From Bryobacterales bacterium (lineage in GTDB: Bacteria > Acidobacteriota > Terriglobia > Bryobacterales > Bryobacteraceae), in contig PNAJ01000059.1 of NCBI GenBank assembly GCA_003170295.1, positions 89,186 through 153,185 of the forward strand: 64,000 nucleotides of DNA, read 5' to 3'. This document shows, one piece after another, positions 50,889-52,537 of the stretch. How positions within the stretch are numbered: the first letter of the stretch is position 1; each line of letters begins with the position of its first letter. The translations under genes and the position numbers were made by a program. The notes under the pieces were generated by a model. It searched no databases. It was not told where the DNA came from and saw nothing but the letters and a program-made list of their open reading frames with translations.

Positions 50889-51344
50889 TCAGGGGCCGGG
50901 GTTTCTGATGACCCTTATTCGCACGCGCACGATGCCCGATCCGACCATGTCGATTTCACGCGCGGCGGCGAGCGAGAGGTCGATGATTCTTCCGGTGACG
51001 AATGGTCCACGATCGGTGATGCGCACATCGACATGTTTATTGTTGACGAGGTTGGTGACCTCGACCCAGGTATCGAACGGAAGCGTGCGATGCGCGGCGG
51101 TCAATTTCGCCATGTCGTAAATCTCTCCATTGGCCGAGCGTCGTCCGTTGTAAGGGACTCCGTACCAACTCGCGATTCCAGTTTCGGTTTCACCGACACG
51201 CGCCGGTTTGACGGGCGAGGGAACATGCGCGGAAGTTTTTCTTGCGCAGCCGGTGAGGATCGAGAGAGCGACAGCGAGCGCGAATGCGAACATCGCCGTG
51301 CTTCGCGAACCTCTGGAACCCGCATGAATAGGCGTCCAAAACAC
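50889..51344 (-). CDS. rlpA: RlpA-like double-psi beta-barrel lipoprotein
   Basis: ETGIASWYGVPYNGRRSANGEIYDMAKLTAAHRTLPFDTWVEVTNLVNNKHVDVRITDRGPF. Confidence 0.9.
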   Translation of the reverse strand: MFWTPIHAGSRGSRSTAMFAFALAVALSILTGCARKTSAHVPSPVKPARVGETETGIASWYGVPYNGRRSANGEIYDMAKLTAAHRTLPFDTWVEVTNLVNNKHVDVRITDRGPFVTGRIIDLSLAAAREIDMVGSGIVRVRIRVIRNPGP

Positions 51345-51438
51345 TAAAACAATTTTACTCGATTACGTTTTTTTGTTTTCGGAGCGTTTTCGACGAGAGA
51401 TCGGCCGCGATGGCGCGCGGCACGGGTGCATTTTTTTC

Positions 51439-51467
51439 TTGACATTAATCTGAAAGAACCTTATAAA
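51439..51467 (+). promoter_or_regulatory. Consensus sigma-70-type promoter
   Basis: TTGACA - 17 bp - TATAAA. Confidence 0.8.
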
Positions 51468-51526
51468 GGGGACACAACCGCGTTCTTTCGGGAGCGCGAA
51501 AATTTGATGTAAGGGAGAATCAATCG

Positions 51527-51592
51527 ATGATGAACGCAACCAAGAAGAAAGCACCTGCCAAGAAAAAGGCTGCTCCGAAAAAGAAGAAGTAG
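51527..51592 (+). CDS. 21-aa Lys/Ala/Pro-rich microprotein (histone H1-tail-like)
   Basis: ATG..TAG encodes MMNATKKKAPAKKKAAPKKKK; SD-like AAGGGAG at 51511-51517; bracketed by promoter and terminator. Confidence 0.75.
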   Translation: MMNATKKKAPAKKKAAPKKKK

Positions 51593-51620
51593 CTAGCGCA
51601 GGTCATTCAAGTTCGATCAC

Positions 51621-51650
51621 CGGCCCCGAGAAATCGGGGCCGTTTTTTTT
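51621..51650 (+). terminator. Rho-independent terminator of the microprotein gene
   Basis: CGGCCCCGA-GAAA-TCGGGGCCG followed by T8. Confidence 0.93.
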
Positions 51651-51661
51651 GGAAGGGTCCT

Positions 51662-52537
51662 TTATTTGAAGAGTGCTTCGACGCGCGGGCGGAGTTCCTC
51701 GTACGTCAGCCCGCCCGGGTGATACATCTTCACGATGCCGTTGCGATCGATCAGAACAAACGTCGGCACCGTGCTGGCGCCGTATTTATTGAAGTTCTCT
51801 TCGCTCACGGGCGCGGGCGCGTCGATCACGGCTCCATAGTATTGCTGGCGCACCTGTTCGATGTAGCGCAGTTCCACTTCCGCGGGCGCATCCTCACCGC
51901 CGGCAACATAGCCGTACTTCTGGGTGGGCGCGAGGAACACGAGTCCTTTGGGAGCGAACTCGGCCTTGATGCGAGCGAGGATGGGAGCTTCGTACTTACA
52001 ATCGCCGCACCAATGGGCCCAGAAGAACAACAGTACCGGCTTGCCGGCGGGGATGGCGACGCGTTCGAGCGCGGGCGCGCGTTTTCCTTCCAGGCTGAGC
52101 ACGTTGATATTTTTCTGAATGCGCGGACGGAGGGGAGTCGCGTAATAGGTTTTCAGTTGCTCGTGCAAATAGGCAATGGCTTCGGCGCGCTGGCCTCGCG
52201 TCGCGAGGACGGTGGCTTCGACTTCAATCGCGCCGCCGAGGGCGATCTGCAAATTCGCATCGTGGGCGAGCGGGTGGGTCTTCAATTGCTCGAGGGAGAG
52301 GCGGTAGGTCTCCTGCGCATATTTATCGGCCTGCACCAGATCTTTTTGGGCAAGCTCGCCGCGCGCGAGCCAACTGAGCGCCTCGATTGCTTCGGGAGTC
52401 ACGCCTCTGGAGGCGCGGTAGGCGCGAATCATTTCGGAGGCGCGGGGAATATCGTTACGGGCGATGGATTCGCGGACTTCGTTTATGAGAGGGACGGCGG
52501 AGGCCGTGGTCACCAGGAGAAAAAGCAAAAACTTCAT
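51662..52537 (-). CDS. TlpA-like thioredoxin-domain secreted protein
   Basis: PVLLFFWAHWCGDCKYEAPILARIKAEF, STVPTFVLIDRNGIV. Confidence 0.85.
   Translation of the reverse strand: MKFLLFLLVTTASAVPLINEVRESIARNDIPRASEMIRAYRASRGVTPEAIEALSWLARGELAQKDLVQADKYAQETYRLSLEQLKTHPLAHDANLQIALGGAIEVEATVLATRGQRAEAIAYLHEQLKTYYATPLRPRIQKNINVLSLEGKRAPALERVAIPAGKPVLLFFWAHWCGDCKYEAPILARIKAEFAPKGLVFLAPTQKYGYVAGGEDAPAEVELRYIEQVRQQYYGAVIDAPAPVSEENFNKYGASTVPTFVLIDRNGIVKMYHPGGLTYEELRPRVEALFK

Follow-up and report, generated by a model that had tools for sequence, protein, structure and literature searches.

The C-terminal tail of mycobacterial HupB carries PAKKA-like repeats and is fused to an HU domain, whereas the unit described here encodes such a tail as a free peptide. 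AlgP of Pseudomonas (a histone H1-like protein) and the C-terminal tail of PhaF share with this peptide Lys/Ala/Pro low-complexity repeats that are predicted to be disordered (PMC9239181). KPAA-repeat peptides of AlgP bind to DNA in vitro, and polyphosphate granules require the AlgP repeat tail for their positioning (PMC9239181). In AlgP, a helical N-terminal domain of 124 aa is joined to a tail of 195 aa, whereas the peptide has no other domain and usually measures 11-30 aa in all. Chlamydia Hc2 and Bordetella BpH1 are, like the peptide, basic and Lys/Ala-rich with a size set by repeat number, and Hc2 binds RNA as well as DNA (PMC2848022). Hc2 spans 165-237 aa and also uses arginine, whereas most members of the present family are a tenth of that size and arginine accounts for 0.1% of their residues. 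In contrast to Hc2 and BpH1, there is no evidence of developmental control for the peptide. The first-pass annotation of this DNA had labeled the product a “micro-histone”. The compositional part of that label stands, since the product is a Lys/Ala/Pro-rich, low-complexity basic segment with frame-keeping length variation by repeat number (11-120 aa), as in the bacterial H1-like proteins AlgP, Hc1/Hc2 and BpH1. Membership does not, as a globular domain is missing and homology is not demonstrable: the 21-aa, domain-free ORF has neither the separate N-terminal domain of AlgP and Hc1 nor a size above ~120 aa, and the winged-helix globular domain of eukaryotic histone H1 finds no room in 21 aa and gave no Pfam match. 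Profile searches with the peptide, a weak test for 21-aa low-complexity sequences, matched no Pfam or NCBIfam family; phmmer against the PDB returned no match, low-complexity peptides being uninformative queries, and in Rfam nothing matched the window region or 10 relatives at E values up to 1. In the literature searched, no paper on Lys-rich small proteins or histones of Acidobacteria was found. Large smORF catalogues, such as GMSC, which predicts ORFs from 30 nt (PMC11364881), and sORFdb (PMC11796252), may list individual sequences without a function (PMC11364881). The peptide is thus best described, from its sequence features, as a minimal free-standing H1-like tail that is covered by no curated family searched (Pfam, NCBIfam, Rfam).

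The unit occupies positions 51439-51650 of the window, i.e., the whole 64-kb stretch of DNA that was analyzed, and its parts are collected in Table 1. The parts proposed in the first-pass annotation (a TTGACA-17 bp-TATAAA promoter, a 5′UTR hairpin, an SD-like AAGGGAG, a 21-aa lysine-rich ORF, and a GC-rich intrinsic terminator with T8) were all found in place. Its view that promoter and terminator are the best of the window was likewise borne out. The promoter at 51439-51467 agrees with the consensus at 11/12 positions and is the sole exact TTGACA-N17-TATAAW within the 64 kb, the runner-up having 2 mismatches, a level (2 mismatches or fewer) at which shuffled sequence yields 1.85 matches; the terminator was top-scoring in the terminator scans. 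In the predicted fold, a weak stem holds the SD-like sequence in its loop. Relatives have a single ATG (M-K-N), and the first of the two ATGs, which aligns with it, was taken as the start.

Table 1. Features of the microprotein unit and its flanking genes (window positions)
Feature	Position	Strand	Remarks
Promoter including T-rich tract	51429-51467	+	upstream tract CATTTTTTTC; kept in every aligned relative
-35 TTGACA	51439-51444	+	sequence
-10 TATAAA	51462-51467	+	17-nt spacer after -35
5′-proximal mRNA hairpin	51479-51498	+	8 bp, UUCG loop; few nt past predicted transcription start
Conserved leader block TTGATGTAAGGGAGAATCAAT	51504-51524	+	contains SD-like AAGGGAG, 51511-51517
ORF MMNATKKKAPAKKKAAPKKKK	51527-51592	+	21 aa, 11 Lys, zero acidic residues
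Intrinsic terminator CGGCCCCGAGAAATCGGGGCCG TTTTTTTT	51621-51650	+	9-bp stem 51621-51642, T8 51643-51650
RlpA-family lipoprotein gene	50889-51344	-	divergent neighbor, context only, outside unit
TlpA/ResA-like thioredoxin-fold protein gene	51662-52537	-	convergent neighbor, context only, outside unit

Regarding the coding status of the ORF, of 23 genomes of the same genus, 22 gave a match to the unit in a BLAST search with 226 bases, as did both same-family genomes sampled and a single genome from a different family of the order; such conservation of the whole unit within the genus is beyond chance. At the corresponding position, the aligned loci have an 18-27-aa ORF, together with conserved promoter, motif and terminator. 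Among 18 ORFs of equal length, variable columns numbered 4/20, 2/20 and 16/20 at codon positions 1, 2 and 3; after codon 2, each Lys codon changes only between AAA and AAG, and Ala codons change synonymously or to Pro. Length differences are whole codons, as in three loci (L018, L019, L021) in which an 18-nt insert adds 6 codons and keeps the frame. A covariance model, R1, spans the unit from the promoter to the start, first codons included; its matches are therefore not independent evidence for the ORF, and a pattern without start codon or coding base, TTTTTCTTGACN{18,24}TATANAN{38,68}GGGAGAAT (promoter plus AGGGAGAAT motif), was scanned over 85,488 species. This ORF-blind pattern gave at least 80 loci, all of which, among the matches listed, come from acidobacterial MAGs except one labeled Bordetella parapertussis. 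The latter (L182, CALQCC020000009.1) has an acidobacterial locus and is probably mislabeled. In 79 of the 80 loci among the matches listed, a Lys/Ala ORF of 11-120 aa begins at the first start codon past the motif, and the single exception is a 3-codon ORF. Pooled over the 80 loci among the matches listed, the peptides contain K 48%, A 32%, P 6%, T 5% and R 0.1%, and 0/586 control ORFs (further ORFs, 10 aa or longer, of the form GGAG-N4-12-ATG from these 80 loci listed) reach 40% Lys. Low-complexity ORFs can arise by chance, and this ORF is lost in some lineages; a chance ORF on a non-coding transcript is nevertheless a negligible prospect, refuted by the comparative data, namely the 79/80 loci listed versus 0/586 controls and the third-position bias. 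These comparisons indicate that the unit is a real gene with a reading frame under codon-level selection.

The genomes in which the distribution was surveyed are mostly MAGs. R1 recognized the unit in 171/201 genomes of the order and 104/300 genomes of the class; nearly all of these have a single match, and three genomes (G370, G400, G418) have two. More distant R1 members read MATKKKAKKKSKKK, MKKKAAKKKKK, MATKKAAKKAPAKKAAKK..., or consist of PAKKA repeats up to 97 aa. Over all the loci compared, lengths run from 11 aa (MKKKAAKKKKK) up to 120 aa, the latter made of PAKKA/PVKA repeats. In L288 (G337), L111, L112, L122 and L158, units of this kind encode expanded PAKKA/APKKA-repeat versions of 66-122 aa, and the promoter of L288 has diverged. 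R2, a broader model than R1, gave candidates in other classes of the phylum: G686 and G672 (MAAKKAAKKAPAKKAAKPAKK...), G557 (17 aa), and G458 (~150 aa of KATKRK repeats); the remaining out-of-class R2 matches are spurious. These few members are suggestive of a thin extension beyond the class, common descent being unprovable for such sequences. At model sensitivity, the unit was not found in family f3 of the same order or in parts of g17 and g11. As there are lineages without the unit, or with the unit and without the ORF, it is not universally needed.

The families of neighboring genes vary by clade, with rlpA and the TlpA gene at the window, a codirectional RsmE gene in some Acidobacteriaceae, and others elsewhere. 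The promoter and terminator stay while the neighbors change between clades, and the unit is independent of them. The earlier proposal of a free-standing gene with its own promoter and terminator thus holds for a gene that is single-copy and coding. With its 11 Lys codons and the terminator behind it, the short ORF is superficially similar to a lysine-codon leader peptide that attenuates a downstream gene. However, the next gene is convergent here (TlpA-like), the next called ORF is convergent in 99 loci and codirectional in 37 (redundant set, simple ORF caller), the neighbors differ between clades, and no competing antiterminator was evident on inspection. Because the neighbors are mostly convergent and not conserved, lysine-leader attenuation is excluded as a general role and very improbable as an account of the unit.

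The leader is structured throughout the family. A 5′-proximal stem of at least 5 bp, beginning no more than 12 nt from the predicted transcription start, is present in 115/115 distinct leaders, the folding of which against dinucleotide shuffles has a median z of -1.9. The sequence of the 5′ stem differs between clades, and the stem itself is kept. In a MAFFT alignment, 82.6% of cells pair versus 75.1% in shuffles (0/500 as high) and at most 63% in slid versions, and four of the seven 5′-stem pairs change on both sides, which together suggest conserved pairing with a moderate signal. Downstream, a perfect stem of at least 6 bp lies within 150 nt of the stop in 102/115, and in 81 of these the 12 bases that follow include 6 T or more. 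In 640 kb, 81 of 93 occurrences of GGGAGAAT sit in units, and only 1 of the other 12 precedes an ATG; the motif differs from the ordinary SD of these genomes. The longer form AGGGAGAAT (51511-51519 and relatives) is nearly unique to the unit, and its conservation exceeds the needs of an SD. CsrA was considered as a general reader of AGGGA, which is placed in a loop. The 67 CsrA matches include most family-f1 genomes, the window's own among them, and no genome of family f11 (probably Acidobacteriaceae), yet f11 keeps the motif; CsrA therefore cannot be its general reader.

The first-pass annotation had held that relatives conserving promoter and terminator and not the reading frame would point to a small RNA. 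Such relatives exist in genus g84 (family f11) and in a few species of g76, g57 and g17, but these are minority lineages, and the frame is kept in 79/80 of the ORF-blind loci listed; the peptide is therefore the main product, with a dual-function RNA as an option beside it. In g84, the Lys-rich ORF is gone in 18/18 alignable species, and the promoter, the 5′ hairpin, CAGGGAGA(A/G)T and the terminator stem are kept. In one g84 subclade, GAG replaces ATG (GAG GCG ACA ... GCG AAA AAG TAG), and the others are without a comparable ORF. The model recognized 13 of 19 g84 species, and the remaining 6, tested by synteny with rsmE, also carry the unit, so the ORF-less state is not only a matter of ascertainment. 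Most of the ORF-less g84 units (L263-L275, L293-L298) have gained a new conserved element, GCGGTGGCAAAG / GCGGTGGCAAAGGCCGC, which the aligned species show outside one subclade. The frame is lost and the unit retained also in G121, G184 and G173 (f11) and in G113, G208 and G298 (g17), other g17 species keeping the ORF. Since g84 keeps the unit without the ORF, the function may reside partly in the RNA, or in a promoter that serves rsmE, upstream of which the unit lies in this genus; the ORF-less descendants are possibly a small RNA or an rsmE leader. According to the dual-function reading, hairpins together with the AGGGAGA(A/G)U motif would let the RNA act as a regulator, the peptide being an additional product, dropped by some lineages. 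The unit kept in the 18 aligned g84 species, a g84 RNA that folds better than shuffles (z = -4.05), and the near confinement of GGGAGAAT to the unit, in a form that differs from the usual SD, argue for this. Codon-level selection on the peptide in nearly all other lineages argues against it, as does the position before rsmE in g84, for which the promoter may be kept; we regard this reading as possible though doubtful. SgrS/SgrT is a dual-function sRNA with a comparable layout, i.e., a short autonomous transcript with a tiny ORF and a terminator. VcdRP, encoding the 29-aa VcdP, is laid out similarly (PMC8672173, PMC4021124). In contrast to VcdRP and SgrS/SgrT, the unit has no known base-pairing target or seed, and codon-level selection dominates outside one genus. 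A class-wide bifunctional transcript, in which an Acidobacteriota RNA with the unit-specific AGGGAGAAU normally also serves as the mRNA of an 11-30-aa H1-tail peptide, while in a single genus the peptide has been lost and the transcript persists as a small RNA, can be put forward only tentatively.

Concerning the role of the peptide itself, charge, lysine over arginine, and Ala/Pro spacing are kept across loci, whereas length and order drift tenfold. This pattern points to a disordered polycation acting by charge density rather than to a folded protein or a sequence-specific ligand. Bracketing of an mRNA by a 5′ hairpin and a terminator stem is established as stabilizing for other genes. A constitutive-looking sigma70-type promoter would give an mRNA of ~180 nt that, bracketed in this way, is expected to be stable and abundant, and its translation, as codon-level selection suggests, would yield a polycation of 11-30 residues, longer in some genera. 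With about half lysine, Ala/Pro spacers, zero acidic residues and almost no arginine, the product appears too short and repetitive to fold and would most likely coat polyanions by charge, chromosomal DNA probably being the first target, followed by RNA/ribosomes or polyphosphate. It would be a counterpart, standing on its own, to the Lys/Ala/Pro tails of histone H1, AlgP, Hc2 and HupB. Composition alone cannot tell DNA, RNA and polyphosphate targets apart. The size, charge and strong-promoter architecture also resemble those of small basic ribosomal or ribosome-associated proteins, and the peptide could be a small basic ribosomal auxiliary component or an RNA chaperone instead of a DNA binder. 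Hc2 demonstrates that such tails also bind RNA (PMC2848022). However, tenfold length variation and free sequence drift are unlike a protein fitted to a fixed ribosomal site, and the gene is lost in several lineages, so that a ribosome- or RNA-associated peptide is judged unlikely. By analogy with a free-standing H1/AlgP/Hc2 tail, we favor, with moderate confidence, a disordered and probably abundant polycation that coats nucleic acid, the nucleoid first, or another polyanion.

Relocated copies were sought by the K/A codon pattern, as a protein search missed even the genome's own copy, and this search found Lys/Ala tails of larger proteins. A second H1-like type of ~180-341 aa, with an acidic N-terminus followed by a long Lys/Ala tail, is found at L335 from base 937 (+) (G000:C166:86800-89800) and at L330-L334, L028 and L029, both in the genome of the window and in relatives, whether or not these have the microprotein. 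These proteins could be the main H1-like proteins of these genomes, which counts against the microprotein in this role. Replacement of a lost peptide by such a protein was also considered, and it is not claimed because the window's own genome has both. L349 of genome G113 includes secreted-looking small proteins ending in TTKKKGKKK / TKKTTKKKSKKAKK.

For most genomes of a major soil lineage, the present analysis brings to light a gene that is usually single-copy and had been left unannotated. Gene callers can miss such a microprotein gene by its length, and tryptic proteomics would, given the Lys content, destroy the peptide. The product would rank among the smallest H1-tail-like polycations with a gene of their own and would provide a natural test of a bare Lys/Ala tail in the cell, and the lineages with the transcript but without the ORF would allow the functions of the mRNA and of the RNA to be separated.
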